Part shown: piece after piece, positions 20,234 to 49,200 of the stretch
Numbering within the stretch: position 1 is the stretch's first letter
Layout: every line of letters begins with the position of its first letter
Origin: Brachionus manjavacas
Taxonomy: Eukaryota; Rotifera; Eurotatoria; Ploima; Brachionidae
Reading direction: 5' to 3'
NCBI GenBank assembly: GCA_019054805.1
Contig: JAHQIY010000041.1
Span: forward strand, 62,001-126,000
DNA: 64,000 bases
Notes under the pieces: model-generated
What the model saw: only the letters and a program-made list of their open reading frames with translations
Told to the model about the DNA's origin: nothing
Databases searched by the model: none
Translations under genes and position numbers: made by a program

Positions 20234-20589
20234 GGGGTTGTGAAGTTCGTTTCAATTCGATCATTTCAATTCAGAAAAACTTGAATAACTTTTTTACTAA
20301 AAGAGATGATTCATTTCTGTAAAATGCTTAATTATAAGCAAATTTGCTTAATGCAGTAAAATAAGTCTGCAAAATACTCTGCAATTTTCTGCATTTTGCA
20401 CCCCATTGAAAAGTATTACAATCAAGTGTGCAATTACATTGCAAGGTTTTTGCAGACGTATATTTTTGGATTAAGCAAAGTTGCTTAACCATTGAGCATT
20501 TTGCAGAACTAAATTATCTCTTTTAGTAAAAAAGTTATTCAAGTTTTTCTGAATTGAAACGATCGAATTGAAATGAACTTCACAACCAC
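20234..20589. mobile_element. Short palindromic Mutator-like MITE with 9-bp target duplication
   Basis: A 356-bp element that is mostly inverted repeat. The left end starts GGGGTTGTGAAGTTCGTTTC and the right end is its complement with a changed CCAC terminus. Identity runs about 70 bp inward, through 'ACTTGAATAACTTTTTTACT'. Flanks: ATTTGAGCT at 20225-20233 and ATTTTAGCT at 20590-20598, a 9-bp duplication with one mismatch. Long TIRs plus a 9-bp duplication fit the Mutator superfamily. The same TIR bounds the dynein-carrying element at 34418-38509, so this is a non-autonomous sibling. Confidence 0.8.
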
Positions 20590-26000: not shown

Positions 26001-29000
26001 AGATTTACATAAATTTCCTAGGGTGTTTTGATCAAGACCCCATTTTTTATTTCACAATATCTTAATAATATTTAGCCTTTTGTTGCAGCGTTCTTTAATT
26101 TCGTCTACTAATATATTAAAATTTAATTTAGAATCAAATTTTATACCAAGAAACTTGATTTCTTTTTGGTTCATTATTCTGTTTCCATGAATTTTTAAGT
26201 TTAGGTTATCACTCTCTTTTTTGTACCCAGAGAAGACTACTGAACACGACATTTCAACTGATATCTTCATTTTCCATTTAATAAGCCATTGTTCTAATTG
26301 GTTGGTGTATTTATTTATCTTATTTTCTAGGTTCTCCTTTTTGTTATAAATGAAGAATGTAACTAGATCATCTGCGAAAAGCAGAGAGTATTCATTATTT
26401 GTTTTTATTTAAAGGATCTTACTCAGTTAGTCAAGTAATGAGGTGGATTCATTTTAATCAATTTAAAAAGTAAACCCTCATGCCAAACCCTAACGAAGGC
26501 TTTAGAAATATCAAAAAAAAAGACCACAAACTCTTTTTTTTTCTATTAAATTATTCCACAATTTTTTGAATTAAAAAAAATAGATTATCTGATAAAAGTT
26601 CTATTTACACATTTTAAATAGAAAAAACAATTACAAGAAAGAAATCTAGATCAACTGTAAAATGATCAGCTAATCGGCTTTTTCTTAAGCCTCTCTGATC
26701 AACTAAACCAGTTGATAACACTGAAATTGAATTTGAATTGAATTAAAAAAATCTTCATCTATTAAACATGCTTTGTTAATGAATTCAATGGCTATTGGAA
26801 TTTTACTTTCAAGGAGAACAAGTTTGAATAATTTATTGGTTTTTTGAATCGATAAATTTTGCTGATTTCTACTTTAAAACAGTAACTGCTTGATCTTTAG
26901 CCTTTCTTTAACGTTCCGCTCTGGTTGTTTCTTCTTCGCACTGCTATCCGTTGTCCAAATTGTAAATGATTCATTACAGTAATCATTGGAAACTTGTAAA
27001 AAGTCGTCAAACGTTTCGAAAGTTTGGTATCGGAAGATTGGGGAGATCATTTTAAAGATAAGTTAAGTAAGTAAATGAACAAATTTGTGAGTACAATTTA
27101 TATGTAGATGGAAAGCTAAGTTTCAGTACTATTTTGAATAGCTTCATCTTTTATCATTAGCTGTTTGATTTGTTTTTTCTAATTAAAATTGACATATGCG
27201 TAAAAAATATTTTTATTTACACTTAATAACTCTTATTTTCACGCATCTCACCTGAAAAAAAGTGCAATCAAAAAAATACTGAAAAAAATGAAGGTGATAT
27301 TTGCTATTTTATTAGATTAAAAATGAAAAGAAAGAAAAAACAACAAAGAAAAAAACACATTCACATAATATTTACAAAAAAGATTTTTTTAGAAGACTTA
27401 CTTTTAAACTTTTGACTATAAAATTTTTGGATATATTTATTAGTTATCTTTTTTTCGAAAATTAAACTAAGTAGACTTTAAAGAGGCGACCATGAGAATT
27501 TTTGATTTTTAATTCATATTTGGAATCATTTGAGGTGTTTGTAAGCTTACTTTTAAAAATACACCCGGATGTTTTAATTTTTTAAAACTGTTTTATTAAG
27601 ACTTATTTTTTTAATAAACTAAAAATTTAAAAAATTACCACTCAATTGAAGTAGCAGGAAAAGACAAAATTTTTGCCATCTAATTTGTCGTGACCATAAT
27701 GTTATTTTTAAAATACACCCTGTAATCTTTTAGAGTAACTTTTAGAGTCTAAATTTTGGACTCTAAAAACGAGTTGGTCTAATTTGTGAATCATCGAATA
27801 AATTTTTATTTTTATTTTGATCAAATAAAAAAATTGATTTTCTTTCTCATATGAATGTTGCTCTAAAATAAATTATAATTTAGATTTAATTAAATTAAAA
27901 AAAAATAATTCTTTAGTAACAAAATAATCTTAGTTTTCTTGTTACTAACAAGAAAAAAGAACGGAAAAAAACTACTTAATAGTTGTTTTTTGTAATTCTA
28001 AATAATGATAGTGTTTAGTAAAAATAGAATTAATAAAAATCAGAAATATGGTACATTTAAGCGAAATAATTTTTAGAAAAAATGTTTTTTTTTGTATTTT
28101 TTAAAAAAATTAGTAAGTAAATATTTTTGTAATTTTTTTCAAATTTTCATTCAAATTAGAAAACAACTTACTAAAAATTATTTGATAGAACTTGGCTTAA
28201 AATAAAAAAAATGAATTTTTACATAAAATAAATTTAAATAGAAATAAATAAAATGTAAAATACAAGTTAATGAAAAAGTTTAAATTAATTCTTGTGTTTT
28301 TTATATATTTTAATTCAGCGAAAAAGTAAAAAAGATTCTTTGGTAAAATAAAAAATAAAAGTTTGAAGTAAAAACTTTTTAGTTGGCAACTCTAAAATGT
28401 TACATAAATGTAATGAAATTTTTACTCTAAATGCTTAGAGTGCAGGTATGCATTTTAGTTAAAAATGAGTGGGGGTGCATTTTTCAGGTATCCATAAATT
28501 TAGTCCTCAAATGATCAAAAATAATTTTAAGATTCACAGTTTGATTACTCTGTAAAACCAGAAGCAAAATCTACGCCTCAAAAAGGCCAGTATCTTGACA
28601 GTTCTCAGGAGTCCAATCTTCAAATTGACTTGTCCACTAGCGAGTCAATAATAAAAGAAAACCTTGAGAATTCTGCAAAAAGCTTTTCGAACATGAAAAA
28701 TGCCGTGTCTTCAAATCAAACGAGTTCATCACAAAATTTGAACGCTGACGAAAGCTTAACAATCACAAACATGGTCGAAAGCATTAAGTCGGCACCGAAT
28801 CTTGGCACACGATTGGAAACCGCTTCAAATAGCGACAAGGAAAACAAAGAGGAATTTGGCATCAAAAACGAAGCGCTAAGTGAAACAGACTGTGAAAGCT
28901 CAAAAGTAAAGAAAACAAAAATGGCAAAGCCAAAAAAAGAGGCATACTCAAACGAAGAAGCACACGAGCCTACCAAAAAAAAGAAGTCGTCCAAATGCAC

Positions 29001-29691
29001 TGACCACAATCCAACCAAAAAACAAAAGCTCTCACAGACATTTCAAAAGACAAATGAGCAAGCAAATAAAGAAGTGTCCGATTGCGAACTTGATAATTCT
29101 TTTTCAAAGAAACTTAACAGTCACATCGGATCAAATTCCAACTATTCATCCAATACCTCAAGCTCGCCATCACAACTGGCAATGCTTCAAAATTTTCAAC
29201 TTATGCCACTAATGTATCCCTGGAAGTCTTTAGAATATGCACCCAACTATTCAAATTTTCAGCAAGCTCAGCAGATTCAAAACCAACAGCAAGCAAACAA
29301 TATAAATTCTCAGGCTCTACTAAACCAAAAATATGCATCTCATGTATTCGATTTACTTCAAAACAAAGCGCAGCCGTATCAGAATTTCTATGCCGCTCAA
29401 ACTCAAAATAGTCACCAAAATCATCATCATCATCATCAACAGCAGCAGCAGCAGTTGCATTCACAATTTCCATGCATAGGCCAACCAGGACTAAATCATT
29501 TCAACCAGTTTAATTACATGGAAGAGTTCAAAAAGCCGCTAGCCAATTTTGCGTCTTTTATTCAGGAAGCAGCTTCCTACCAAAATAATATGCTTAGTGC
29601 TAAAGTTATGCAAAACGAAAATTCTAGTATGGATTCATTAAAAGAGACTCAGATGAAAATATCAGAAAGCTGTAGTCTTGTTAATGATTGA
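23089..29691 (+). CDS. Polycomb group RING finger protein, PCGF2/PCGF4 (BMI1/Psc) type
   Basis: Core subunit of Polycomb repressive complex 1, the RING partner of RING1 in ubiquitinating histone H2A. Eight exons in perfect phase: 23089-23200, 23254-23350, 23404-23459, 23527-23580, 23637-23896, 23965-24045, 24094-24331 and 28532-29691, giving 685 residues. RING finger (about 18-60): CPLC, ECLHSFCKSC and CCPVC. It is followed by 'YKIVPELF' and '[13 protein letters not shown]', which match the BMI1 region after the RING. The RAWUL domain (about 170-240) has '[10 protein letters not shown]', '[10 protein letters not shown]' and 'YIYAWRR'. The 390-residue last exon is disordered and Ser/Lys-rich with likely nuclear signals ('[19 protein letters not shown]'), then Asn/Gln-rich with a short His run. 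It is far longer than vertebrate BMI1 (326) and closer to insect Psc in layout. Intron 7 (4.2 kb) is mostly a transposon. Confidence 0.93.
24640..24830 (-). pseudogene. Zinc-finger-like coding remnant inside the MULE
   Basis: The minus strand reads '[17 protein letters not shown]', resembling the first half of a C2H2 finger of the kind found in transposable-element proteins; the usual His is not preserved. An interrupted Glu/Lys-rich stretch precedes it. It is probably part of the transposon's own decayed protein, on the same strand as the fragment at 26874-27050. Confidence 0.35.
25440..26640 (-). mobile_element. LINE copy A, 5'-truncated, nested in the MULE
   Basis: The minus strand carries reverse-transcriptase motif A ('FDISKAF', then '[10 protein letters not shown]', near 26460-26540), the catalytic 'FADDL' near 26370, '[13 protein letters not shown]' near 26130, and a C-terminus ending '[12 protein letters not shown]' (25636-25878). 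The 3' tail contains 'GAGCCCTAGCTCGGTACAG' at about 25460-25490. Frames are broken by shifts and stops. This is a CR1/jockey-like non-LTR element; I cannot place the clade. Confidence 0.8.
26874..27050 (-). pseudogene. N-terminal fragment of a MULE-type transposase
   Basis: A 58-codon frame starting with ATG at 27050. It contains '[18 protein letters not shown]' followed by a Trp-Thr, Ser and Lys-rich stretch. The pattern of a Phe-x-Thr/Ser-Phe-Asp-x-Phe opening, an aromatic-Cys and a basic run resembles the FAR1/FLYWCH-like N-termini of animal MULE proteins. It may be a first exon. No DDE catalytic core was found in the element, so it looks non-autonomous now. Confidence 0.4.
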
Positions 29692-29692
29692 A

Positions 29693-29698
29693 AATAAA
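29693..29698 (+). terminator. Polyadenylation signal of the PCGF gene
   Basis: AATAAA begins two bases after the PCGF stop codon, which implies a very short 3' UTR. Confidence 0.5.
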
Positions 29699-29864
29699 AC
29701 ATTTTTGTTAAAATTTGTTGTAAATTTTTCGTTTTTTTTTTAATTAAATTTTAATCAATTTACTTACTGATATTTGAACATGAGTATACTTTAATAAAAT
29801 TTTGAATTTCGGTCATTAATTTTATTATAGTCTAATTGAACGTTTTTAAAATTAGACCTACTAA

Positions 29865-30093
29865 TTAACTCTAGAAGCACCAAAATTTCAAACTACTAGT
29901 AGTAGCATCATCATCGTTATGAAAAATATAGAATAAACCATATATTTTATGTTCTTTTATATTGAAATTACTAAACAAAGCTTAATTGAATAATAATAGT
30001 AAATTATTAAATCTTTTCAAAAAATAAAAATTATGCTCAAATAACAAAAATCCAAAAAGAGTCATTTTGACTCGTTGGTTCTTCTAGTGTTAA
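29865..30093. mobile_element. Short piggyBac-like MITE (229 bp)
   Basis: TTAA at 29865-29868 and 30090-30093. The ends read CTCTAGAAGCACCAA on the left and TTGGTTCTTCTAGTG on the right, with the GTCATTTTGACTC subterminal palindrome near the right end. It belongs to the same family as 7615-8359. Its right end and the following 60 bp resemble 33690-33850, so this copy sits in, or was copied with, a larger dispersed repeat. Confidence 0.7.
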
Positions 30094-30224
30094 GTGAAAA
30101 AATATGAAAAAATAATTTTTCTGTTTTGAAAAATATTTATATATTATAGTTATTCTGGTTGAAAAAATTATTTTTATTACAGCTTTTTTATTTAAAAATA
30201 TTTTTTAAATTTTTTCCAATGTGT

Positions 30225-32520
30225 TCAGAGCAGACATTAGTCTTTCATGCGAACATGGTGAACACACTCATTTATTTAAAATAAAAAATTAAATCCATTT
30301 TTATTATAAATCAAACTGTTTTAAATTATAAATTTAAATAAATAGTACAAAATAGAATAAGAAAAAAGAAAAGGAGAGATAAAGGTGATTTGACATTATT
30401 TTAGGTTATTATTTTTTTATTAAGAAAATTATAGATGTAATCTATGTCAAATTTGGGAAACATTTTAATAAACTCAATAAAGTGTAGATTTACATTATTA
30501 ATTTTTCTTTGTCTAAAAAGAGATAAATTTAAATCTAGATCTTTCAGTGTAAAAGAGTTGGTAAATTTAGAAAAAAAGAAAGAAAATGTTAATTCACTAA
30601 AAGAATTAAACCCTAGACTTCCTGTAGTATTTAAATTTATTGCTGTTTCTTAAATTAAATGGTTTGTTAAGTGATTCGTTCACAATAAGTTGGTTTTTAA
30701 GTGGGAGAGGCGATTCTGGGTTCTTTAAAATCTTATAAGAAAAACAGCAAAGCTTAATGATCAGCCTATGTTGAAATCCATCAAGACCTAGAATTTCAAG
30801 ATTATTATTTATTGTATTGAAATCATTAGGAAAATTAACTTGGGCTCTGAAGTGAATCAATTTTAAAAGTGAAATATAATATGAATTGGATAATGATTGA
30901 ATAGCTGGTTTAGAGAAATAGATAGTAAGTGATAAACAATAATCAACGTGGGGCAAGATTTACGTTTTAAAGAATTGTATTTTTACTGGTTTTGAAAGAA
31001 AGAATAATTGCTTAATTGAGTTTAGCTTTTTATTAATAGTAGCTTTTAGATTGTTAACGTGACTGGTAAAGTTTAATTTATTATCTATTATAACACTTAA
31101 AAGCTTGAATTCAGGTACAACCTCGATTTCGAATGATCTAAAAGAAAAGATGCTGGTATTACTATGTTTTTTTTGTTATGGATAATCATTATTTTAGTTT
31201 TATCCCAGTTGATATCAAGACGATTAAACGAGCACCATTTGTACACTAGTTCTAAGCAATTTTTGAAGCTGTCTATTAAATCCTTTAAAATTGAACTACA
31301 AAAATTGATAGTGGTATCATCAGCAAATATTTTACAGTTTATGTCGTGATTTTTAAAGAAAAAAATCTAGGTCATTTATTAAAAATTAAAAAGAAAAAAG
31401 GACCTAACACACTGCTCTGTGGAACTCCAAGGTCTATTTTTGAGAATTCAGAAAGAGTGCCACCGAAGGATACCGCTATTTTTCTACCAGAGAAATAATT
31501 TTTGATAAGATCTAGAGCGTTTTCACTAAACCCAATTCTCTTTAATTTGCAAAGTAAAAGACTTGGGTCTAACAAGTCGAAAGCCTTGCGAAAGTCAATA
31601 AACAAGAGAAGTGTAATATATCTTTTGTTACGTGATGCGTTCATATCTGAAATAAGTTCATGCAAGGCTGTTTCACAGGAGTGATCTTCGCAGAATACAT
31701 ACTGGCATGGAAATAGAATTTTATTTGTGTTCAAGTATAGAGATAATTATGATTATCAAAAATTTTTGATATTACAGGTAGTACGGAAATTCCTCTGTAG
31801 TATTTGATTATTTCGACTTGACCTTTATTTTTGTAGATAGCTGTTATTATTGCGCATTTTCATTCATCAGGCACTCTGCAATAAGTGATACAATAATTGA
31901 TAAGTTCAGTTAAAACTGGACCAAGAATTATTGCTGAATCTTTAAAGATTTTGACTGAAATATCTGAGATTCCAGGACCATTGTTGGGGTTCAAATTACT
32001 AATCAATTTAACAACAGAATCGACCGATTTTAAATGAAAATCAAAAGTTTTCTCTTTTAATTTACTAAAGGAACACATGTTAGAAAGTTCATTAAAGGTT
32101 TCATTTATAGAAGCTATACAGGTCTTTGTACCAAATACTGAATCTGATTTTTTATCTGTAACAAAATTATTCAAAAGCTTGCTAATTTCTGAGGCCTCAG
32201 ATGCGGAGTTCTTACCGTTGATAATGAAGTTCGGAATGATACTGTTTTGTTTGTCTGACTTTATTTTTATGGTTGATCTATAGAATTCATTGAATATTTT
32301 TGAATTTAGAAAATCTTTTAGTTTTTTATCCTTGAAATACAAGCTTAATTTTTGTTCGGTCAAAGTTTTTATTCTTTTTTTTGTTTCAACAAATGAAAAA
32401 TAAAAAGAGCGCTCTTGTGTGTTTTTCCACGATTTATAAAAAACCCGTATTTTAGAAAGAGAATCAATTTCTTTATCTGACCATGGGCTAAGAGAATTTT
32501 TTTGCCGTGTTCTCGAATTT
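30225..32520 (-). mobile_element. LINE copy B, 2.3 kb, broken reverse transcriptase
   Basis: Minus-strand ORF2 pieces: 31860-32363 (pre-RT to RT start, 'SNLNPNNGPGISDISVKI'), 31372-31734 (RT core 'DHSCETALHELISD', motif A 'FIDFRKAFDLLDP', 'LGVPQSSVLGPF'), a downstream 'KIFADD' in another frame near 31330, and the C-terminal domain at 30606-30956. The sequence to about 30225 is probably its 3' UTR. It belongs to a different LINE family from copies A, C and D, with distinct RT and 3' end. There are several frame breaks; the 5' end merges into the G-rich repeat described next. Confidence 0.8.
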
Positions 32521-32524
32521 TAAG

Positions 32525-32930
32525 GGGAAAAATGGCTTATGGGAGTAAATGATGGTGCTAATCACGAATATGTTGTCTGTTGGGGACCATATTTTGGACG
32601 ATAATTAAATAATTTTTAATTTATTTAATTAAAAAATATATTAAATAAATTAAAAGATATTTAATTAAAGATATTTAATTAAATGGGGTGAAATAGGGAA
32701 ATAGCTAATGGGTGGTAATGGAGAGTGCAGATCTCGAAATTGAGATCAGTTGGGGGTAAGGTGTCAAGGGGGACATGGTGAGCAAGTTTTGTCTGACAAT
32801 TAACACTGCTTTCAATTTAAATGGGGGAAATAGCTTATTGGGGATAATCGACGGTGCTGATTACGAATATGAGGTCAGTTGGAAGATAGGTGTTAAGGGG
32901 AGATGGATCCTAATCACGAATATGATGTCA
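32525..32930 (+). repeat. Degenerate G-rich tandem repeat (three units, about 130-160 bp apart)
   Basis: Three diverged units start near 32525, 32690 and 32820. Each has a core like 'GGGGAAATAGCTTATTGGGG', then 'GATAATCGACGGTGCTGA', then 'GAGGTCAGTTGG'. The G-richness is unlike anything else in the window. It sits immediately upstream of the 5' side of LINE copy B, where promoter monomers would be expected, but could be an independent minisatellite. Confidence 0.55.
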
Positions 32931-33029
32931 TGTTGCTCCACTAAAAGAGAAATTAAAGGTGTTATTAAAAATTCTATAAATATCATAATTGAGTTCGGTA
33001 AAAAAATGGAGATCGACAATTAACAATTA

Positions 33030-33600
33030 AAAACCTGTTATACGACGTTCATTTCAGCCGGTCTCAGACAAAATTACACGAAGAAATACAGCTTCAATCT
33101 CAATATAGCAAATCAAAATATTCAATTAGAACCCAACCCGACCTTCTTAGGCAATACTTCAGTCCCCAAAATTAATTTCAAAAAGCATCTAAAACAAGCT
33201 CAGAAAAAATTTTTACAAAAATTAATTTGATTAAGCGTATCAAAAATTTCAAATGGTCAAATTCATCTTCTATGAACACAATTCTATACAAGTCGTAAAC
33301 CAGATCACTATTCGACAGCTGCTTTGTTACTTCAAACTAGACCTAATCGAAGATCTTACCAATAACCTTTTCATTAAGTTTATATCCAATAAACTTGGAC
33401 TTACAACAATCGCGAACGAAATAGTCGAATTTATAAGCGATAGTTCAATAGAATACAAACGTTTCAAAACGTCTCTGTACAACATTATTTAAATCACTTT
33501 TTCTATCAAAAACACTTTTTTTTTAATATTATAATAAACTCAAAAAAGAGGGCTAAATCAAAGGCTAAATGCCATTCGGACGCTCCTGGGATTTACTCCC
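33030..33600 (+). mobile_element. LINE fragment, plus strand
   Basis: Reads 'NIQLEPNPTFLG' and 'INFKKHLKQAQKKFLQKL', the region after the RT of LINE proteins. In a second frame it continues to a C-terminus 'ANEIVEFISDSSIEYKRF' ending at 33492. A compact GC-richer 3' end follows ('GGCTAAATGCCATTCGGACG', 'CTCCTGGGATTTACTCCC') that could fold as hairpins. 5'-truncated, with at least one frameshift. It lies on the opposite strand from copy B. Confidence 0.65.
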
Positions 33601-33689
33601 AAACAATTTTTTAAATAAAAAATTAGAAAAATGTCACAAAGACAAAATTTTTTTTATTTGAATTTAGTTAATCTAGAAAATTATTATTA

Positions 33690-33850
33690 TTTTATTGCTG
33701 AAAAATAAAAAATTATGCTCAAAGTCATTTTGACTCGTTAATTCTTCTAGTGTTTAGTGAAAAAATATGAAAAAGTAATTTTTCTGTTTTGAAAAATAGT
33801 TTAGTTATTCTTTTTTATTCAAAAATATTATTGAATAAAATAATTTGACA
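33690..33850 (+). repeat. Copy of the dispersed repeat found at 30030-30150, with a solo piggyBac-like end
   Basis: Shares 'AAAATTATGCTCAAA', 'GTCATTTTGACTCGTTAATT' and 'AGTGAAAAAATATGAAAAAG' with 30030-30150, but the left MITE end is missing and the right TTAA is altered. A further loose match, 'GTGTCAAAATGACCCG', lies at 34032. The remaining sequence to 34408 shows nothing. Confidence 0.55.
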
Positions 33851-35629
33851 GATATTTCGCATTAATAAAAAAAGCATTCAATTGACTAAAAAATAAATAT
33901 TGACACTAGCTATTTTGATACATTAGCAATGCATAAACAGAGTTCTTTAAAATTCCCAAACTAAACTCAAAGTGGTAAATGCTAAGAGAACCGAATGCTT
34001 AGAGAATTTTTTTAAATTTTAAGGATCAAACGTGTCAAAATGACCCGTTTTAGTTTTGCTTAATAAAATGATAATAAATAGAGCTTTTTGAACAATTTTT
34101 TCGAAAAGTTAAATTCTTATATTTAAATTATAATTTATATTTAAATAAAATATCAATATTTTGAGATTTATTTATTTTTATCTCTATAAACTATTCTAAT
34201 AAGAATTTTTTCTTCAATTAGTTAATTTATTTTATTTAAATGTTAAAATTCTGTCATTAATATTTAAATAATTTTAAATTAGGTGGTTATAATGGTTAAA
34301 ATTTTATTTTTCAATATTTAAAAAACAAAATATTTTATTATAATAATCTTTTAAAACTTTCAGAAAATTCAATTAGACGACATCCATAATTTTTATTAAG
34401 AATTTTAAAGGAAATTTGGGGTTGTGAAGTTCGTTTCAATTCGATCATTTCAATTCAGCAAAACTTGAATAACTTTTAAACGGTTTAATATTTTTTAAAA
34501 ATTTTGAATCAAGCAAATTTAAGCATGTTTGCTCAATATTTTCCCAAATTTTATAAATATTATCTAATATAAGGAAGCATTATCTAATAATTTAAAAATA
34601 AAAGTAATGTTTGTTTTGCAAATTAATAAAAAACAAAAATAATGTTATGTTTATTTTAAAATTAAACACTCTTTTCAAGATATTAAAAGTTATTAAAATA
34701 AAAATGTCAAAAAAGTTTTTACCAAATATGAATTAACAATGAGTAAATTTGATTAAATTAGGATATAAATTAGTAGACCCTTTTAAATCGAAGTGATATA
34801 TAATTTTTCATTTTAATTTATTTATAGGATTAGAAAACTTAATTTTTTAATTGCGAGGTAATAAATATTAATCATTTTCTTTTAACTTACCTTACTTGAT
34901 ATAACATGTAAGTTTTATTTGTAAATAATTGTTTTTGCCTTGATTTTCAATGTCCCCATTTAAATTGCATTTCACTATTTAACTCAACAGCTTTTTTGAC
35001 AATTTGCAATGTTAAATTCAGAATGAAAGCAAATACAAATATTTGGTGCAATTTAAATAATAAAAAAAAATTATTTAAATAATAATAAATAAACAGTGAT
35101 TTTGATTGCTCGCAACTATAATTAAAATAAAAATAATTTTTTTTTCAATTTATTAAACATATAAAAAATATAAAAAAATAGAAAGAAAATAAACTCAAAA
35201 TCACTAATATTATTCTTTTTCATCAAAAAAGCGATTTTCATCTCATCTCATTGTATTACTAATAACATATCCTTAAAATTGTTGAAAAAAATCAGCTAAA
35301 TTATGTAATTTCAACAATTACATATTTAATATTTAAAATATCTTACTTTATCGCTTGAAATGCTTAATGAGTAAGCATTCCCTGTTCTCTCTTAGTACGC
35401 TCGTTTAGATCGGGAAAAACAAGCATTGTTGGTAATAGGCAAAAAAAAGAAAGGATCGTGTCAAAACGAGAATTAACTGAATTTAAAAGAAATTAGAATT
35501 GTTAGTTACAACAAAAAGAGAGTTGAATTTTCGAAATGATGAATCAACACTGGCTTATCAATATTAGGCCATCTAGATTTAGAAAGCATTGACAAAAATC
35601 TATTAGTAATAGCCGAAAATTTTTTGCTA

Positions 35630-36790
35630 GCTCATTGCTTTTCTCTCATTCTTTAGCTCTAGAATGCTGGTCTCAACTTCTTTTGACCAAACATAGTTCA
35701 GCCCCCTTCCTTAATGGTTCTCATTTTGCTCTCAAGTTCTTGTTCTTTCTTGGCCGATTTGCATATTTCCTCTATTTCATGCGAGTGCAAGTCGAGTCCA
35801 ATGTCAATCAGATCGTTTAGCTTGAACACAGCGGCCTTCAGTCTAAAAGCACTTTTGGTCACTTGCATTACTTGGAGCTAGTGGCGATTTCGGATCTATT
35901 TTTCATTTAGCAAAATAAGTATGGGCAAAACATCTATGTATTTTTTGAGAGCTTTTTCAGGTCGAAATAAGCCTCCCAATTTTCTTTTAATTTTTCTGGC
36001 AAAGCTAAAAATTCCTCCCAATAGGTCTTGATATTGCTGAATGCTTTGTTGAGGTCCACATCGCTCCAAAGAGTGCTGCGGAATTGTTTGTCAAAGCTGA
36101 GAAAAACCTGGTACACTTTGTACATTTGATTGAGAAGATTTAGCTCTTCGCCAGTATTGTCCAGCTCTGGAAACGGCTTGCACTGAAGTCCGAAAAGAAT
36201 GCTTATGGAGTCGAGTGTTTTGCGTCTGGCGTCAAATGTGTCGCACTGTTTTTGGAATTCGTGAAGTCTTCTCAGGGCTTCGTAAGTCTCATCAACTGGG
36301 ACCAATTGTCTCTCAGACTTGACACTTGTTCAATTTCTTGTCTGGTCAGAATGAGCACGTAGCGCTGTAGATCAGCGTAAATATTCTCAATTGGCAAGTA
36401 GATTTTGTCTATTTTGTTTTCCATGTCGGACAGTTCTTCCAAAACACGCAGGGCGTCATTTAGTTGTTCCAGAGTTTGAACATTTACCATGAGACGTTTT
36501 TACACATTTTCCCTATAAACAATGCATTCTTGTATTGTTTATTGGTGAGAGCCATTTCGTGCAATACGGACGCGTATTTGAACTTCCAGCTGTAAGAAAA
36601 TGTCTTTAAAGACACTCTTATAGATTCCGTGTCGAGACAAGCGGGACCAATATTCAGGTATTAGGGAATTTCGAAAACTTGCTTTTCGATTTTGGCCAAG
36701 CAATCCACTTCTCGTTTGATCACAAGCTCGTCTGGTTCATTTTTTATAAAGTCATTAAAAAGACCATTTAAATCTTCTTTACATAAAAAT
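35630..36790 (-). pseudogene. Captured dynein heavy chain fragment (tail/linker region)
   Basis: About 1.2 kb with no visible intron. In order it reads 'EIPxYLNIGPACLDTESIRV', 'IDKIYLPIENIYADLQRYV', 'YEALRRLHEFQ', 'LNLLNQMYKVYQVFLSF', 'LWSDVDLNKAFSNIKTYWEE', 'AYFDLKKL', then 'VTKSAFRLKAAVFKLNDLID' and 'GLDLHSHEIEEICKSAKKE'. These match the tail and early linker of axonemal dynein heavy chains ('YVPMEKRYALV', 'LWGDVDIEAINNELLEFQNR', 'FLDLKKKID' in vertebrate homologues, from memory). The copy has several in-frame stops, frame changes, and an apparent deletion near 36300. It is a broken gene piece, not an active motor, and lies wholly inside the TIR-bounded element. The parent gene is not in this window. 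Confidence 0.8.
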
Positions 36791-37544
36791 TCAAAGAGAA
36801 TTTTAAATTGATTAATTAATAAAAAAAAGAAAGGTAAGATTTTTGAAATGGTTTAAATTGATGGATTTTTTTAGTTATAATTAAATTTTTCAAATAATTT
36901 TTACAAAATTGTCAATTAATAAAGCAAAATTTTTTCATAAGAGAACAATTTTTACCCTGAATAAAAAAATAAAAAATTTATATCAATTATGGTTTTTTTT
37001 CCAGATTTTTTAAAAAATTTTTCGACAATAGATAATTTTGCATTATTTGAAATAATTTGAAAATGTTCATTAAAATTTTTAGGCTAGAAAAATCTATTTT
37101 AAAAAATAATTCAAATTTTTTAATCGTTTCGCTTGGTTTGAAAGATTCCTTTTATAAATAATAATTATTATAACGAGAAAAAAATTAAATTTACAGTACT
37201 AATTTGAATCTAGGGTCTTTTTTTTAATTTTGCGTAAAATTAAAAATGTAAGAAAAGGTTAAATTACAAAAAATTACGAGAATTTCGGTCATTGAAATGG
37301 CCTAAAAAAATGTCATTTTTACTTAAAAATATGAGTAACTTAAAATTACCAAAATGTAGATAAATAAAGTAAAAATGTTATTCAATAAAATCCACAAAAA
37401 TTAGCATTCAAATTATTTGTTTTAAAATTAAAAAAATAATTAATAATATTTATCTAATTCAAATTAAATTTAACTCCTGGTTCAATTTTTTCTAAAATAA
37501 ACTTTGCATCTTTTTCAGAAGTAAAATTTAGCACATTTTCTAAC

Positions 37545-38200
37545 TTACTTGAGAAATGCTTTTTCCAGTTTATGGCTGTCGGACCAGTCCGTGTCTCTGA
37601 GAACCGAGCTGACAGAAAGTGGTCTTTTTTGTGAATTATTGTTCCGTGTCAAGTCGTCGCCTGACTTAAGCCGCAAGTAATAGAGTGCATCAGCACCATC
37701 TGGATTAATATTCACCAAATTATTTGTCGATTCGTAACCACAAGCTTGTGCCAAGAATTGCAAGGATTTAAGGATCGAATTATGCATGTCATTATACAAC
37801 TTTTCTGAGTAGAAATTCTTCAAAAAAGTAAGTTTAGGCTCCGAATTGAGAATTTCGTTTAGGGTAATTTTTGATTTTTTCTTCAAAATTTGCAGAGGTT
37901 TTCAGAGATGCTATCAAAACGCTTCCGATTTCCTCAATTTTTTCCTCTATCATGGCAAAATGAGTGCTAATTCGTTGACCAATGTTGTCAATGGAAGTGC
38001 CGATTTCAGTCAAAAAATACTTAGGGTTCCAGGTAGTGCTGAAGGCCAGCTCATGATCAAAAAGATACATTTGACTTATTTTCTCGATTAAGGTCAAAAT
38101 AGTTGCTTCCTTTGAGTCGAGCTGATTTCTTTGGTCTGGTTTAAAAATGACATTTATGACTTGGACTGCGCTATGATCTGACTGGCAAACTGCTTATAGT
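37545..38200 (-). pseudogene. Second coding block in the dynein-carrying element, parent unknown
   Basis: Two overlapping minus-strand frames, 37834-38097 and 37545-37886, contain 'YLFDHELAFSTTWNPKYF' and 'LTFLKNFYSEKLYNDM'. Base composition and codon use look coding, and it lies on the same strand upstream of the dynein piece, so it may come from the same parent's N-terminal tail. I do not recognise the sequence. The two frames imply a shift near 37850. The 750 bp between the blocks are AT-rich and unrecognised. Confidence 0.45.
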
Positions 38201-38689
38201 TCGGAATCCAGTCGAAATTTGAGCTTATTTTTTAATTTTTTGAATTTTGAATAGTTATTTAAAAAGATCTATTTCATTTTGCAAAAACATCTCGATTTGA
38301 TTTAATTTTTGTCTTTATAATTTTAATTTTTTTTTAAATGACACCTGAACGACTAATTAAAAAAAAAAAAAATTTAATTTAAATTTTTAATTAAGCAAAT
38401 TTGCTTAATTTTTGAGCAAAAAAAATTAAGAAAAAAACTTATTCCTCTAAATAGTTATTCAAGTTTAGCTGAATTGAAACGATCGAATTGGAACGAACTT
38501 CACAACCCCAGGAAATTTGAAGTTTATGATCAAATGTAAATTTCAGATCAAAATTTTTAGTTTTTGATTTAACCTATTTTTGATCGAATTTTTAAATACT
38601 AAATTTTTAATTCTAAATTATTTATTAAACCTTACTGCATTAGGAATACAAAAATTCCAATACAACATTTAAATTCGAGACTTTATTAG

Positions 38690-39735
38690 TTCTCATACAC
38701 CAAATTTTCAATAAAATACCCCAAATTTTTTAGAAAAACGCCAAAAACAAAATAAAAAAATAAAAATATAAAATGACAATATTTTTTTTCACATTAGCAC
38801 CTAATTTAATAGAAATACACCAAATTTTATTAAAAAAAAAAATTTTTTTCAATTTTACCACAAAAATTTAAATTTTTCCACATTTTTTTGAGCAAGTCCA
38901 ATATCTTCTTTTAATCATTTTTGTACCACATTTATCACACAACTTTTCTTCAGCTTGTATGTTTGAATCAATTCTCGGTCTTTTGGATACATTTTCTTCA
39001 ATTGGATTACTTGCATCATCATCATCTGAATCAATGCCATCATTTGGTGCTATATTTGATGATTGAGTCTCTTTCAGTTGATGTTCCAGGGCTCCAGCTG
39101 TACCTTTTGGTTGTCCTCTTTTTCTATTAGCTTGTATCGGTAAATCCATCCCAACTGAGTCGAAACTACACTTTTTTTTACGTGCGGCAATTGTAGTTAT
39201 ATGATAAAATTTATAATGTTTTAACCAATACCAGCAATTGCAGCTACTCATAGTCCAACTGTTTTCATTTATTTAACTTTTATTATTCTGAAAATCGACG
39301 AAATCATTTGTTCAAAAGAAGTCCAATTTTGATCACTTAATGAACGATTGTATTGTTTACATTGTTCTTTTGTGATATCAGTGTTGTCATCGCCAGTCAA
39401 ATAATAGCAATTTTCATCTTTCAAATGTATAATTGTTTTGTTACGATTGTTCCATTCATAAGCTTTTACTATATCCTTGTTAGTAACATCTGGAAATTCG
39501 TAAAATATTTTTTGATTTAAATTCTCAACAATTCGAGGTTGATACGTTTCATCATCGTGCAAAATCAAGGTAGGTGCACGTTCGATTGACCATTCTTTTA
39601 CAAGATTATCTCGAATTCGTAAAGAAAAGGGATTAATCCAAAACGTTTTTTAATTAATATTTTATTGGTGTAAAATATTAATTATTTGGTGTAATTTATT
39701 GAAAATTTGGGGTATCGAAATTCAAGAGCCTAAAT
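38690..39735 (-). mobile_element. Relic of a second MULE with a SWIM-domain transposase C-terminus
   Basis: The minus strand reads 'NPFSLRIRDNLVKEWSIERA' (from about 39640) through 39269, then in a new frame 'CNCWYWLKHYKFYHI', a Cys-x-Cys...Cys-or-Tyr...His SWIM-like finger. 'DLPIQANRKRGQPKG' follows, which resembles the basic Arg-Gly-Arg-Pro tail of MULE transposases, then an acidic stretch and 'CDKCGTKMIKRRYWTC' near the end (38868). Both sides carry 'CCAAATTTTCAATAAA' in opposite orientation (about 38693 and 39705), probably its inverted ends. No clear target duplication. Only the C-terminal third of a transposase remains; the DDE core is absent. Confidence 0.6.
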
Positions 39736-39894
39736 TCGACAACTTGAAGTTCACATTAATGATCACATGATCAAACTTTAATTGATCAAAATCTTAAAAT
39801 TTAAATGATGAAAAAAGCTTATTTGAATTCTTTTCAATTAAACACCAAAAGTTGATTATCTTAATTAAATATTAAAAATATTTTTTTTCCCAAT

Positions 39895-40165
39895 TGATCT
39901 TTAACTGATTTTTATAAAATATTTATTTTAAAATTTTAAAAACCAATTTAAAATCCACATCAAACCATCCGAATTATGGCAATAAGTGATATTTTAAAAA
40001 TAAATAAAATATATTACTGGGAAACAAAGTTAAATTTTGTATTTCAAAATTTCAAAATATTGATATAGATTTTATTTTATTTTGATATAGATTAAGTCCA
40101 TTTAATTTTCTTCCTAATTAATGATTAAACAAATCATGTTTGATAAATTTTACAAATTTAATAAT
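39895..40165 (+). repeat. AT-rich dispersed repeat (further copies at 58675-59010 and about 42100-42200)
   Basis: Shared words include 'TTTATAAAATATTTATTT', 'GGAACAAAGTTAAATTTT', 'CAAAATTTCAAAATATT', 'AATTTTCTTCCTAAT' and 'GATTAAACAAATCATGTTT'. Order and orientation are kept in the 58.7-kb copy, which is interrupted by a MITE. The 42.1-kb copy keeps only 'ATTACTGGGAAAATAAAG' and its flank. No coding. Confidence 0.6.
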
Positions 40166-40249
40166 TATTTAAGAATTGATAGAAAACACATAATATTAAT
40201 ATAGACTATAAAAAAAGATGAGATTTTTTCAAAAAATTTTTTTCATAAT

Positions 40250-40440
40250 TATTTATTTATTTGTTTTCTGTACCGAGCTAAGGCTCCTTCAGAATAAATT
40301 AAGAAAATCAAAATAAAAAATAAATTTTAAGTTAATAAATTAGTAAAAAAAATCAAAATAAAGTAAATAAGCTGAAAAAAATGTAAAGAAAGTTAAGAAG
40401 ACATTTTCTGAGATAGGGTGTTAAACATAGTTGAAGCTTC
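40250..40440 (-). mobile_element. LINE 3' end only (same family as copies A, C, D)
   Basis: 'TGTTTTCTGTACCGAGCTAA' followed by 'GGCTCCTTCAGAATAAATT' marks the conserved 3' terminus of the LINE at 25.4 kb, in the same orientation. ORF2 sequence is essentially gone, so this is a severely 5'-truncated insertion. Confidence 0.65.
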
Positions 40441-42760
40441 AGAATAAAAGAAAAAATCAAAATAAATTTATAATTTAAAGAATCTTGTAACTTAATATAT
40501 AAAATGTATTAAATGTACTATATAGAGAAATTTTGAGAGTCCATTAATTTCTGTAAAACGAGTTTCATCTGTTGATTTTAAATGAGATCGATTATCAAAT
40601 AAAGAATTTTTTTTCTATTAAAATAATAATTAGAGGAGGACCCTGGGCAGTCTGGAACAGAATTAACCTCCCTTTTTGGATAATTAAATAAAGTGAGCAT
40701 AATTTTCTAAGGATTTTTTTTTTGGGAGATGAGTTCAATGTTGTTTGCTAATTTTGAATTTTTTCCAAGTTTACTTTATTTAATTAATTTTACTGTGATG
40801 ACAATTAAAAATATAATATCGGAAAAATTTCTTAAAAAATTTTGCGATAACATCAGATCAAACTCGAACAAAAACAATACAGATATTTTTTTTTATAATA
40901 ATTACGCCAACTCTAAAAATGTTAACAGTCTTAATAATAAGAGTCTTGAGTTTTAAAATTAATAAAAGGTGAACAAAACCATCTAAATATTTTTTTAAGA
41001 AAACAGGGACGGGTATTCAAAATTCAAAGGAAAAAAATTTTTGGCATCAAGTGAAAATAGGTCTAATTTTTTGGACCACTTTTATTTCGTGTTCCTTTTA
41101 TAAAATAATATTAAATTTACGAGATGTAATTAATATTTTTTCAATTTATTTCTACTTTAATTTTACAATCAATAAATAAGCGGAACAAGCAAGGCTTACG
41201 ATGTTAAATCCAAACTTTAAAGACAACTATATGGAAAGGCAAGAATATTGATTGTTGATTGAAAACGTTGAATTTAGTCAAGTTAAATTTATTTTTCAAA
41301 AGATATTTAAGGAAATTGTTTTCATTTAAAAATCTAATTGAAAATCAATGAATTTTTGATGAGCCAAAATGGGTACGAAATAATTTGAATCTTATTTTTT
41401 CTAAATATTAAAGTAAACAATAAAATTAAAAACTTAATTTGATATTTGAAATCCTATTTATTTAGCAACAAAATTTTGTTTAAAACAATGATTTTAATTT
41501 TTAAAAAATTATTAAATTTGGATGATCATTTTTTTGAAAAACCGTGAGGCTCGAAAAAGACTGGCTTTAAATTTAGGAGAAATGGACGAAAGAGGGTTAT
41601 TATGGTAAAAAGAACAAAACTAATAAAGGCTAGAAATTGTTTTTGTAACTACATTATTAAAATGCTTCATTCATTAAAAATAAATTTTTATAAATAAAAT
41701 TTTTTTATTTTTAAAAGCACCTAAAACAAAGTAAAAAGGTTAAAAATAAATCATTTGAAGATATTTAATTTTTTTTTCGAACCTAAAAAAATAGTAATAA
41801 GTTTTTTTAATCTTAATTAAAATCTTTTTATATGTTAAAATTTATTAATAATTTAGATATAAGTAAATTTATACATGTGAAGTTAAATTAGTGCCAATTT
41901 TGAATACAAAAAAGATAGAAAATATTTATTTGAAGAAAAAAATTAATAAAAGGACAAAAAATTTGTAATAAAGAATTAATTCTTGCAAAAAAATTAGTCA
42001 GCGCAGTTTCGAAAGGCGACTCCTGCTTTTCAACCCTCATTAATTATAATTTCATTAATTCAAATTATATGAGATTTACAAAAATTTGAATTGAAATTAG
42101 ATATTTATGTAATTGAATGCATTACTGGGAAAATAAAGTTGCAAATTCTAAAAGTAATTGAAATTTTTCAAAAAATAAGATTAATTACAAGAGATTAAAT
42201 TTGATTATTAATTGTTTTCTGGCTTGTATGCGAAATATGATCTGAAAATCATTTCTAAATTGTAAAAAAAATAAATTTCGTTTAAATTTTTCAAGAATAT
42301 TATTACAAGACATTATTTTTAAAAGAACTTTTTAGTTTTCAATTTTTTTTTAAAAAGTGTTTAATTATTTAACCATTCATTGCATTTAATTTTTTTAGTT
42401 GCTGAGTAACTAAAAGCTTATTTAACAAAAGCTCCAAAAAAAACACAAAATTAATACTTAAAAATAACTAATTTTACATAAATATTGAAAAGTAATAATA
42501 AAAAAGTATTTGATGTAAATAAAAAAAATTTAATTAAAAAATAAAATTTATGTTTTCTTTTTCTAAATTTTACCATTGCCGCCATTATGTTTCAAGTAGA
42601 AAAACAAAATTCTTATAAACATGAGTAGATTTAAAATTTTGCTGAGCATTGTCCAAAAATTATGCCAAATAATTTCGATGAATTTTTCTTCAGAATTATT
42701 TAAAATAAAATAAACCAAAAAAATTTCAATCAATTTCAGATTTTACATTTTATTTTGAAA
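40441..42760. other. Intergenic, nothing recognised apart from a repeat fragment
   Basis: AT-rich with homopolymer-rich tracts. One 75-codon open frame at 40729-40956 has no recognisable motif. It lies upstream of the CH/ankyrin gene and may hold its promoter. Confidence 0.35.
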
Positions 42761-45700
42761 ATGACTTTACGTAGCCGTATTCACGGCTTTACGGCTTGGG
42801 CAAACATGAGACTGGTTCCATTTGATCATTCCTTAGGAAATATTATAATGGATCTTCTACATGGAACTAACATGAAATACTTTTTGCAAAGCTTTACTGG
42901 AAAAAATAATGAAAAATTTACTTCATTCGATAAGTAAACTTTAGGCTTATTTCTAGAGATTTTCTGAAGCTTTCAATTGTTAATAAGTATGACAAAAGAG
43001 CAAATACAAACCCGAGTCAAATGGATGATAAATGAGTTAAAAGAGCATAAGATCATTGCCAGTGATATAATTTTGGACACGAGACTTTTCGCAATCCGTA
43101 GTTCAAAGCATGTAAGTAAATTAATCCGTTCCATTTAATTATGATTTTACAATTTATTAATTCATAGATTTTTGACTTACTATGGAAGTTGGTTTGCTAT
43201 GACATTTATTTTTTGTGGATCAGAATTGACTTTTTGTCAAACAAAAATGTGGACAATTTGATTAAAGTGCCTTTTACTGTAAGCTAAGGAGTTTTTGTAT
43301 TTTTTTTTTATATTAATTATAACCAAGTGGGTTCCCGAGTCACCACCAGAAAAAAAAAATCCTAAGAATGCAGAAATTTCACAGCTAAGTGGTTTTGGTT
43401 TTATTCAAGACGTCTTAAGAGAAGGAGATAACGAAGAAGCTGTATTTGCTTAAAAATACATTTTATGCTAAAGTGCATGGATTTTTAATTTTTCTAAAGG
43501 AAGAGACAGTCGAAGTCAATTTTCCTGGCCTGGATTTTATGAAAAGTTTTTCATTGCGAAAAATCGATCTGCACAAAGTTCCAAATCCCAAAAATTGTAT
43601 AATAGAAATGATAAATATTCAATTAAAAGTGATTTTTTTATGAAAGTTGCTTCTAAAAGCTAAATTTTTATTTAAAGACAGTTACTGAAGGTGAACAGAT
43701 AGTATTTACGGTAAGAGCACATTTTAATTACACTCTATTTACTTCGATTTTAAATTTTATAGCAAATCTTTGCCAATTAAATTGTTTTCTTTTATAAGTT
43801 TTACAGCAAGGACTTCAATGAATAATTTTGAAAAATTTTAGCAGACTTTAGGAGCATCTTTGTAAAAATTTTGAACAAAAAAAAAGCTTTAATCACTTGA
43901 AAGATTTTCCAGTTTATTTTTTTTAATTGAAACTACTTTTATTAAAAGACATTTTTATTTTTTGTTGAAAAAAATTTTTAGGAAAGATTTAAAGATTAAA
44001 ATTAAAAAATAAAATTTATCTTAAATTTGCATAACCAATCCTTCTTTATTTTGTTTACTTTACTTAAAAATATTTATTTGTTTATTTAGCTTTATTGTTT
44101 AACTTCAAGAATTATCTTAAAATAAAAAAAAGGGTACTTATTAAATATTGATATCTAGAAAACTCTCTCTTTTTTTAATACTCGCCGGAATTACATAAAA
44201 ATTTAACTTTGATTTTGACAAATAAAAAATAAATCAACTTTTTTCTTTTTTTAGAATTTTTTAAAGTAAATTTAGGCAAATAAACCATAATTTAAAATGG
44301 CTTATAAAAATTTTATAATCAAACAGAAATTGTCAACATAATAATTATTCAAAAATCATTCTTAAATAAAGCTATTTAAATTGAGCCTTAGAGGCAAAAA
44401 AATTTTTTAGAGCAATTTACCCTTTGAAAATTATAATTTTTTAAATTTTTATACTTTTTTCAGTTAAAAAAATGATTTTCATCAATTAGTTTAACTTTTA
44501 ACTAAAGATAAACAGTAAACAGTCAAAAGATTAAATAAGAAAAAAATTGAATCATTAAGATCCATTAAATAAGTTTCTCTTAAATGAGTTAAGAATTTTG
44601 TCATGACAATTAAAAATCTTACTTAGATTTTCGAATATAATCGTAATTTTCCAGTATTTTCAATTAATATTATTAAAAATAAATATTTTAAATTTTGTTA
44701 AAATATTAGGAGTGAGTATAAAAATGAAATGGAAAATATATATGTGAATATGAATTTTTATTGAAATGTGAAAATTATATAAATTAATTTTTTTACTCAA
44801 AATTAAATCACAAAAATTTATAAAAGTCAATAATTAAAAAAAATATCTTTTTTTTCATATAAAATAAATTTTTTGTTTTACAACACTGTAAATGTCTAAT
44901 TACTGATTCTTGAAATTTCTAGGTTTTTTATTTAATTTTAATTTCTTCTTCGAGATTTAATTTTATATTCAAAAAGAAGATGTCAAAAATTAAAATCATT
45001 CAAAAAAGTTAAGAACACATTTAGTAAAGTAAAGAATTATTTAGGGAAATTTGCTCAAATAACAGAAACTTAAGTATAGTTTGATAAATTGATACAACTC
45101 AAAAATTAAATTTTTGCATGGTTCTTTTTTAATTCAAGAGACAAAGTACGATTTAAATAAATGAAAAAAGGTTGAGAACAAGAATCGAGAACAAAAATGG
45201 ATTTGAAAACCGCAAAAATTCAAAAAGTATTTTTAATAAAAAAAATCTTGATAAAAATAATAATGATAAGAAAATTAATTATTATTTGTTTTTATATTTT
45301 ACACACGTTTTGACCATATGGCCTTCTTTAATCTTATGACTGAAATAAAAATAAATTTTGTTAATTTTTTTAGAAATGATTCATAAAAAATTATTTTTTT
45401 TATTAAAAAAAGTTTTCAAGTTTTTCTTAATTGAAACGAATTCACAATTCATCTGAAAGGATGGTAGTCTCTTTCTAAAATTATTCAATTTACAGTGCTG
45501 CTACGATACCTTGAATTCACCATATTTTACGTAAATTATGGTAAATTCACGATATTTTACCATATTTACCGTAAAATATGGTAATCTAAAAAAGGGTATT
45601 TTTCGTAAAATAACGATAATCATCGTAAATTACCGATAAAAATGGAATAGGAAAATTTTAAGAAGTTATCAGGAAAATTTCAAATATTTTTTGATAAATT

Positions 45701-46227
45701 TATTTTTTTTAAAATTTTATTCAGTTAATTAATTTAAAATTGAAAATAAATTAATTATGAAATATTAATTTACTGTATTACACTATTTTTACTGTATTTT
45801 ATTTACAACCATTAGTTTCTTATCTTTTACAAGACAAACTAAATTTTCTGAAAAATATATTTGGGTCTCGTATTTTTTTGTCAAAAGTTTCATTTAGAAA
45901 ATTTTTGGTTTTCTACATGCTGCAAGAGACTTAGTTTTATAGAAAGTAGTTCACTTCTATCTTTATTTTCCCATATTACGACATATTCCTGTTATTTAAT
46001 TGAAATCATAACCTTTTTTAACTAATTGAAAATTTTGATCTGGCTATGTAAACCAAATAATGAGTAGAAATTCTTGTGATTCTGAAAAATAATAAATAAA
46101 GAAAGTGGAATGTTTTCGAATATTCGGTCTGGGTAATTAGACACATTTGACATTAGAAAGTTACATGAGTAAGTTGGTTTAATACAAAGATTAAAAATCG
46201 AATTTGTCACAAAAATCACAAAAATTT

Positions 46228-46263
<36 letters not shown>

Positions 46264-49200
46264 TTTAATTATAGTTATGAATAATTAATAATTAATATTT
46301 AATACTTTTGTTATAACCGTGTTTAGGCTATATACTTATTTGTTGGATAATTCTATACTATGGGGCAATTGTATGACTTATCTTTGGTCAAATTGAGAGA
46401 TCGAATAGAGAAAATAAAAGTGGTGAGATAAACTTTTATTTGTTAAATTGGAATCTGTCTTAATAAATGAAAAACAAGCATTTTATTTATTTATTTATGT
46501 ATGAAAAATTATTACTAGAATATAGTAACACTGTAAATGTTGAAAAAAATGAAATGTATAACATTAGCTGTTTATTAAATTTTTTATTTAAATTGTATTT
46601 GGTTTAATTTTTTGTGTTTGAATTAGAAAATTTATGTTGAAATAACATTGAAAAAGTGCGATGTTTTAAATAAGGAAATGGGGTTTAAATACTTAACTTC
46701 TGCTCATTACCTACAAAGCACTTATATCCCTAATCACCTGCGAATCCAATAAAAAACAATAGAGTCCATCCAAACCAAAGCCCTTAGAACAATTTCAAGG
46801 TCATCTTCTTCTCTTCTCTCGAATAGTGAAATGCTGAACCAGTTTAACCTAGAAACTATTCAGGAAAGATGCAAAAAACTTGCGAGCAACTATCTTACTA
46901 GATCTCTTAGAGTTAACCCCCTAATAAAAGATCTTGTCACATTTACAACATTGCTCCTCAAATAAGCGAAGACTTATTCTGTGAAGGAGTTCCTAAGCCA
47001 ACTCTAATAGCAACTCTTCAGATGCCTTAGATAAGTTTTAAAAACTGTAAATACCATAATTTATCAAGTTTTGACCTTAAATATCATTTCCAAGCTAATT
47101 CACACTACAAAATAAAAATGTGGATCTTTTCGGTTGGGTGAACCAAAGTTCACTTATTAAAGATTTGGTGAACATTTATTTGATTAGGTCAACTAATAGT
47201 TCATAAAACCTGAGAACAAGAATAGTTACAGTAACAGGTGAACCATAGTTAAGCTAAGCGACTAGACACGAAAAACTTTGTTTTCTTCTTATAAAATTTT
47301 GACTTACGAGTGATAATTTACTTTCGTTTGGTGCATTTTAACAAATACTCAATTTATGAAAAACGGAGAACAGAGCGTAGATAGTTTTTTAAAATACAGA
47401 TCTTAAAGGATCATCATATCATAAACCCAAAGTTTAAATTTAAATTTTTAAATTTTTTTATGCAAGGTTTGTTTATTGCTGTGCGGCTAAATAAAAAAAT
47501 AAAAAGAAATTTTTTTTTTGAAATTTATTTTAAAAAAATTTTCTTATCGGAAAAATACAAAAACTAGGATAGAAAAAAAAAATCGAAGTAAAAAAAACGC
47601 AAAAAAAAAAAGGAGTGAAAATTGTCTACAAAATTGAAAATTTATTTTTTAAAACATTTAAAATGCCCACCCTTAGCTTTTATACACTCAGCGACACATT
47701 TTGGCATTGATTCAATCATTTTTTTTACTACTTCACTAGGAACTTTTAACCTTTCATCAAAAAGAACGCTTTTTAAATGCTCTCCTGACCTAAATTTTGT
47801 ATTGACCATTTTGTGGTCAATATATGACCATAAATTCTTTGTTGGATTGAGATCAAGTGATCTTGGGCACCAGGGGAGAACTGTTATTTGTTTTTCTTGA
47901 AACCAATCTCGAACGGAATGAGCAGTGTGTGCACCAGCGCCATCCTGCTGAAAAATCCAGTCTTGACTCTAATCAAAAATCTCGGCTGATGGTAATAAGT
48001 ATTTTCCACAGTGTCCATGTACGCAAATTGATTAATTCTGCATCAATAAATGGAGCAGCATCCAGTACCTTTATAATCAATACATCCCCAAATACCAACC
48101 GAACCTCCACCATTTTGTAACTTTGGTAAACAAAATTGGGGTGATACTTTTCGTTTGCAAAACCTTTTACAAACACTCTAGATTTTCTGTTTAATACTTC
48201 GAAATTAGACTCGTCACTAAAAACAACTTTTGACCAGTCATTAGTCGTTCTTTGCACCATTTGAGCCTTTTCGATCGATCCAATACAGTCAAAATAGGTT
48301 TTTTTATTGCAGTCTACGACTGTATTTTTTGTTCTAATAAAACTTTTCTTCCAGTGTCTTTACTAACAGTGACATTTGGAAACTTAGAACTAAAATCAGA
48401 GGCTAGCTGTCTATAGCTTTTTGTAGGATTGATTCTGACCTTTCTAAAAATGTACGACTCATCTCGACTGGTAAGCTTTCGGGGTCTACCAGACCTTGGT
48501 AATTCTTTGACCACGGATGTCTTCTCATAATTGCGCTTTGTTGTAATCACACATTTTCTCGAAACTGGTACTAGATTAGCTATTTCTTGTTGAGATTTGG
48601 TCTTATCCTTCAAAAGACCAAGTATTTGCCACCTTTGAGCCTCAGATCCTTTTTTTTGCCTATTTTTATGGAAAAAAACCCAAAATGGTACAACTCAATA
48701 AAATAACCAATTTTTAAAATCCAAAAAAAATAAATCAAACGCAAAAAGTGCAAGCAAACAGTATGAAAAGACATTCCAAGCATTGTGCGAAAAAAAATGG
48801 CCAGGGATTGTCAAGTTGTGGTAAAATTTTAGGATAAAATAATTGTTCCAAACTTTGTAGACTATTTTTTTTTGTTCAGTTTTATCTGTTTTTTTTTAAA
48901 TGGGTTCAGGAGTGTTCAGAAATTTTTTTTGAACAATCTATATATCAAAAGAAAGCTAATAAAATTAATTTTAAGATGGTAAATAAAAAATAAAAAATAG
49001 AATAAAAATAAAGGAAGTTGGTGGGTTCATATTAAGCATCATATTTAATGAGATGTGTGATTCTGTCCGGTATTGTATCCCTATTTTTTGAATTGAATAT
49101 TGTTATTAGTTCAGTTACTATCGGGTTGTTCTTACAATTCGTTCTGATTTCCGATTTTATTACGTATTTGTTTACTTTGCACTGGTCTTCTAGTTTTAGT

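Follow-up and report, generated by a model that had tools for sequence, protein, structure and literature searches.

The DNA analyzed here is a 64,000-nucleotide stretch of contig JAHQIY010000041.1 from the rotifer Brachionus manjavacas (the window), and its positions 34418-38509 very likely form a single non-autonomous unit of the Pack-TIR type (TIR, terminal inverted repeat), most likely Mutator-like, that carries copied DNA of a DNAH5/gamma-type dynein heavy chain gene. Paired inverted ends, a duplication around the whole unit and, inside it, host gene sequence that does not belong to a transposable element, which are three features of a Pack-TIR, were all found. A preliminary description of the sequence had proposed an animal Pack-MULE candidate (MULE, Mutator-like element) with captured dynein; the packed, decayed gene piece in a transposon-like unit was upheld, whereas membership in Mutator is drawn from the duplication and the length of the ends alone. 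The unit is delimited by four features:

34409-34417, no strand: left copy of the target-site duplication, AGGAAATTT, 9 bp
34418-34477, plus strand: left terminal inverted repeat, strong part of 60 bp, with weak gapped element-like similarity to about 34537
38450-38509, minus strand: right terminal inverted repeat, strong part of 60 bp, with weak gapped element-like similarity from about 38380
38510-38518, no strand: right copy of the target-site duplication, AGGAAATTT, 9 bp

The left end and the reverse complement of the right end agree at 56 of 60 bases (93.3%, E 1e-21 within the window). Beyond 60 bp the likeness between them fades, the ungapped inverted pair extending over 89 nt at 84%. 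The 9-bp duplication is perfect, and within the 64 kb its sequence is confined on the plus strand to the two flanking copies, with five occurrences on the minus strand; at the local base composition, the random agreement of two 9-mers would have a probability of about 2e-5. These results confirm the inverted ends of about 58 bp and the perfect duplication claimed in the preliminary description. A pattern of 22 bases from the inner part of the end had zero matches in viral_contigs or genome_contigs. A contig from IMG/VR (51% GC) was considered as a relative of the unit's end; its likeness is limited to the outer 18 bases and was taken as chance.

By its similarity, the cargo is the decayed remnant of part of an axonemal dynein heavy chain gene of the DNAH5/gamma type. 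Its main block, 36795-35701 on the minus strand, runs collinearly with the gene from the late tail into the linker and consists of the following pieces:

36664-36795, minus strand: dynein tail piece, matching the gamma chain from residue 985
36487-36660, minus strand: dynein tail piece, collinear with the piece at 36664-36795 (gamma chain match)
36275-36499, minus strand: dynein tail coiled coil, DYH2-5-8_CC (Pfam, below the curated cut-off)
35937-36329, minus strand: start of the linker, DHC_N2 profile positions 1-73, with the stretch before it (Pfam)
35701-35877, minus strand: linker piece, DHC_N2 profile positions 97-154 (Pfam)

The joined reading of this block had its best match in the Protein Data Bank to the Chlamydomonas outer-arm gamma chain (E 9.5e-32), with DNAH5 matched at E 1.9e-24. 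With E up to 1, it matched 21 distinct solved-structure sequences, all of them 4309-4730 residues long, 15 of which are named dynein and six of which carry other depositor-given names. Residues 985-1165 and then 1193-1392 of the gamma chain were matched in gene order. A slightly longer joined reading matched DHC_N2 with E 3.4e-15; this match halts at profile position 155 of 403, indicating that the recognizable gene piece ends inside the domain. The dynein reading extends into the first third of the linker. Seven of the 21 inner open reading frames (ORFs) of at least 50 residues were scanned singly against Pfam. DHC_N2 was found in two of them (once above and once below the curated cut-off) and DYH2-5-8_CC, the coiled coil of dyneins 2/5/8, in one (below the cut-off), while the remaining four gave weak below-cut-off matches to unrelated families, or none. 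No transposase was recognized in the seven, as the preliminary description had also reported for the interior, and any movement of the unit would therefore depend on a transposase from elsewhere. We also built profiles from the printed dynein fragments of both matched stretches and ran them on 1244 ORFs of the window. The hits inside the unit had E-values of 1.4e-20, 2.8e-10, 1.5e-12, 0.0017 and 0.071, compared to 1.0 for the best ORF outside it. The dynein tail and linker sequence had been put at about 1.2 kb; it is present, and larger than stated.

Two blocks further upstream in the gene's direction were described earlier as a second coding block:

37548-37901, minus strand: dynein tail block lying upstream, matched by residues 846-890 of the gamma chain (fragment search)
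37837-38193, minus strand: open block in another frame that overlaps 37548-37901, with no more than a suggestive likeness to dynein

The separateness of this region did not stand, at least for 37548-37901, which looks like the same dynein gene further upstream, as judged from a fragment comparison. In the alignment of the full reading with the gamma chain, residues 846-890 were placed on 37548-37901, upstream of residue 983, with 0.3 bits. When this gamma chain fragment was used as the query against the same 1244 ORFs, 37548-37901 ranked first (E 0.0068, the next ORF having 1.3). A separate second gene at 37548-38193 was accordingly rejected for 37548-37901 on the basis of the dynein match. 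Neither alone nor with the neighboring block did 37548-37901 give a dynein match in the Protein Data Bank. A profile made from two dynein sequences scored the remote ORF 26877-27062 (E 0.0078) better than 37837-38193 (E 16).

The composition of the interior follows the coding blocks. In steps of 200 bp, the nine steps over these blocks have 32-44% GC, compared to 14-29% in the other twelve, and two AT-rich stretches lie in the interior:

36796-37548, minus strand: probable intron, 15-28% GC, with a GTAAGT donor at 37548-37543
34538-35700, no strand: interior, mostly AT-rich (14-29% GC in five steps of 200 bp over 34618-35617), in which no coding sequence was recognized

The first of these is probably an intron, and the second is possibly a captured intron or a spacer. 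The presence of a probable intron makes a copy at the DNA level likelier than a retrocopy, and the inverted ends around the dynein block likewise speak against a retrocopied pseudogene. We conclude that the dynein sequence was probably copied at the DNA level, with its coding pieces in gene order together with the probable intron. The reading path of 36795-35701 shifts frame three times and is interrupted by three in-frame stops (in descending order 36663, 35936 and 35909), in agreement with the claimed decay of the captured exons; should 37837-38193 belong to the gene, its junction with 37548-37901 would add a fourth shift. As a rough estimate, roughly this many lesions would be expected from neutral decay since insertion, given the 7% difference between the two ends.

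A short relative of the unit is present in the same window:

20234-20589, no strand: short relative, 356 bp, near-palindromic, with ends of the same family and flanking 9-mers alike at 8 of 9 bases

Its left end is 98.3% identical to the left end of 34418-38509 over 60 bp, and its own inverted ends agree at 83 of 90 bases without gaps. A weaker, gapped similarity between the two elements can be followed inwards for about 105-130 bp at either end, and on the right side it takes in AAGCAAATTTGCTT. The sharing of the ends claimed for this element was therefore confirmed, but the 9-bp duplication also attributed to it is imperfect, its flanks being ATTTGAGCT and ATTTTAGCT (8 of 9 bases). A third, degenerate end of the family was observed at 45368-45447; it scored 40.4, and none of 275 random places scored above 30.0. 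The best left partner for this end scored 26.6, which was unconvincing against a 95th percentile of 26.0 and a maximum of 30.0 in the same 275 places.

These comparisons suggest a model for the origin of the unit. Its ends, alike strongly over about 60 bp and weakly to about 130 bp, belong to the family of the 356-bp element, and host dynein DNA lies between them in place of the interior that the short relative has. The capture may have occurred within a member of this family, through gap repair or template switching, and the cargo has since decayed; any movement would have used a transposase supplied in trans. Within this model, the packed element could have been formed elsewhere by template switching and then moved to its present position by a trans-acting transposase. 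Alternatively, a short element may have inserted first and made the duplication, with a later internal break being repaired with dynein DNA, in which case the cargo never transposed. We give this second course an even chance. Gap filling in a resident element is the origin that a survey of animal genomes reports for most single-copy Pack-TIRs (PMC8277862), the window holds one packed copy, and the end regions of the unit resemble the 356-bp element over its outermost 100-130 bp. On the other hand, the same authors attribute multicopy Pack-TIRs, including the packed elements of frog, alligator and fly, to transposition (PMC8277862), and the sequence gives no means of telling gap filling from the transposition of an already packed element, since either would leave the duplication. 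Transposition of the packed unit and gap filling thus appear about equally probable. The preliminary description had the element mobilizing dynein exons; the packed piece is present, but mobilization is not established, since most single-copy animal Pack-TIRs are ascribed to gap filling (PMC8277862). It is unlikely, in our estimate, that a mobile animal Pack-MULE copied and spread a multi-exon, intron-containing stretch of axonemal dynein. If this were true, an active family of gene-shuffling MULEs, on a par with those of rice, would have existed in the lineage.

The Mutator-like class of the unit is likely but unproven from its sequence. The 9-bp duplication lies inside the range of 8-11 bp given for MULEs (PMC6446971). 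MULE ends are often longer than 100 bp, compared to the 60 bp of strong likeness and 89 nt at 84% found here, and shorter families exist: in Aedes, the MULE families described have duplications of 8-9 bp in 14 of 14 cases, with ends longer than 100 bp in 12 and shorter than 60 bp in two (PMC5225508). Some doubt attaches to this class, and we regard it as possible, though the less favored option, that the ends come from a non-Mutator superfamily with similar duplications, or from Rehavkus, whose status as a MULE or an outgroup is debated, so that the unit would be a Pack-TIR and not a strict Pack-MULE. Merlin is an example of a non-Mutator superfamily with such duplications. A superfamily is defined by its transposase and is not fixed by the lengths of end and duplication, and no transposase is known with these ends. 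Rehavkus has 9-bp duplications and is given as an outgroup in the account of PMC6446971. Against these points, the duplication of 9 bp and the end length of about 60-130 bp both fall within the ranges of MULEs (PMC6446971, PMC5225508).

That two solo copies of the short element inserted independently beside a genuine dynein locus or pseudogene is very improbable: such an element is present in the window at 20234-20589, but the outer 9-mers of the unit are identical, each side has one end, and no further end was found inside. The best inner matches to the end scored 16.8 and 15.2 on the two strands, whereas 100 shuffles reached up to 20.4 and the true pair scored 52. Four ends would be expected from two complete short elements; with no inner end above the shuffled background, the unit does not consist of two such elements. 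The preliminary description had named dynein exons running on beyond 34418 or 38509 as evidence for a genuine dynein locus. All 24 minus-strand ORFs of at least 50 residues that start in 29000-34417 or 38510-46000 were free of dynein matches in Pfam.

Several points weigh against a single captured unit or against parts of its description. Of the 27 plus-strand flanking ORFs of at least 50 residues, three were scanned with Pfam, and no dynein was found in those three. The fragment profiles cover the same dynein stretches as the cargo only, and not the adjacent parts of the gene. A second copy, the parent gene and a transposase-bearing element are beyond the reach of the 64-kb window. Within the cargo, about 30 gamma chain residues between the two matched stretches are without a counterpart in the unit, a clear acceptor was not found for the putative intron 36796-37548, and the left 1.1 kb of the interior is not accounted for. 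The query that supports 37548-37901 was picked through the 0.3-bit alignment, so its first rank is not an independent discovery. For 37837-38193, comparison with two dynein tails was not significant, 808 of 2000 and 350 of 2000 shuffles scoring as high.

Elements of this general kind are already known in animals. Among the closest systems are the non-autonomous, Muta1-derived elements found in Aedes aegypti (Liu and Wessler 2017, PMC5225508), which like the unit have shared ends, variable interiors and duplications of 8-9 bp, and about 20% of which carry sequence alignable to host genes. Unlike the unit, the Muta1 system has an active MULE transposase and more than 300 putative derivatives, and the example described carries a 276-bp kinase fragment, compared to a dynein stretch of about 2.2 kb with a probable intron here (PMC5225508). 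In Ssk-FB4 of Drosophila melanogaster, for which its authors use the term Pack-MULE (Tan et al. 2021, PMC8277862), a host gene likewise lies between inverted ends, with duplications of 9-10 bp; this element is however polymorphic and multicopy and represents a young protein family, whereas one decayed copy is present in our window. Single-copy animal Pack-TIRs also resemble the unit in having one stretch that is not of transposable-element origin between the two ends of one element (PMC8277862). The figures given in that survey are 370 Pack-TIRs in 100 animal reference genomes, 323 of them hAT or TcMariner and 0 of them Pack-MULEs; those 370 were chosen as young, with a parent of at least 90% identity (PMC8277862). 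Turmoil-1 of C. elegans is another animal transposon with captured coding sequence, its gene pieces being inside the inverted repeats and not between them as here (PMC2572040). A 15-kb insertion in Nematostella has been described as suggestive of a pack-MULE (PMC9842752). The earlier remark that Pack-MULEs are rarely described in animals is fair, even with the share of host gene sequence among the Aedes Muta1 derivatives reported in PMC5225508. In the literature examined, an animal genome has few transposons that pack host gene sequence, and fewer still are placed in Mutator. The present case, in which clean ends enclose a large piece of a gene, was not met in the literature searched on animal Pack-MULEs. 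With its clean ends and duplication, its long identifiable gene piece and a short relative 14 kb away, the unit is a good seed for a survey of gene-shuffling elements in this lineage.

Just beyond the right end of the unit, 38871-39649 on the minus strand contains two ORFs in order. These resemble a decayed C-terminal part of an animal MULE transposase (a SWIM-like CxC...H and a basic motif), but the searches gave no support: Pfam returned no MULE or SWIM match, the Protein Data Bank one chance-level hit, and a pattern of this region 8 matching stretches in viral_contigs, 0 of them confirmed. An inverted repeat of 32 nt (91%) at 38695-38726 and 39684-39715 brackets the two ORFs as a unit of 1.02 kb, 38695-39715, around which no matching flanking duplication was seen by eye. 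The left neighbor of 34418-38509 is a reverse transcriptase on the minus strand, with RVT_1 above the cut-off at 31375-31746 and below it at 31100-31366, and a further minus-strand RVT_1 piece, below the cut-off, lies at 26055-26408; all of these pieces are presumably of LINE type. At 48317-48694 on the minus strand, HTH_32 was matched above and HTH_Tnp_Tc3_2 below the cut-off, and this is likely a Tc1/mariner relic. The other proteins recognized in the window are an HSP20/alpha-crystallin domain protein (50312-51664, minus strand, two matched stretches), a protein that combines LRR and TIR domains in the manner of Toll-like receptors, a DOCK protein, a queuine tRNA-ribosyltransferase and an ornithine decarboxylase, and the gene content of the window looks animal.

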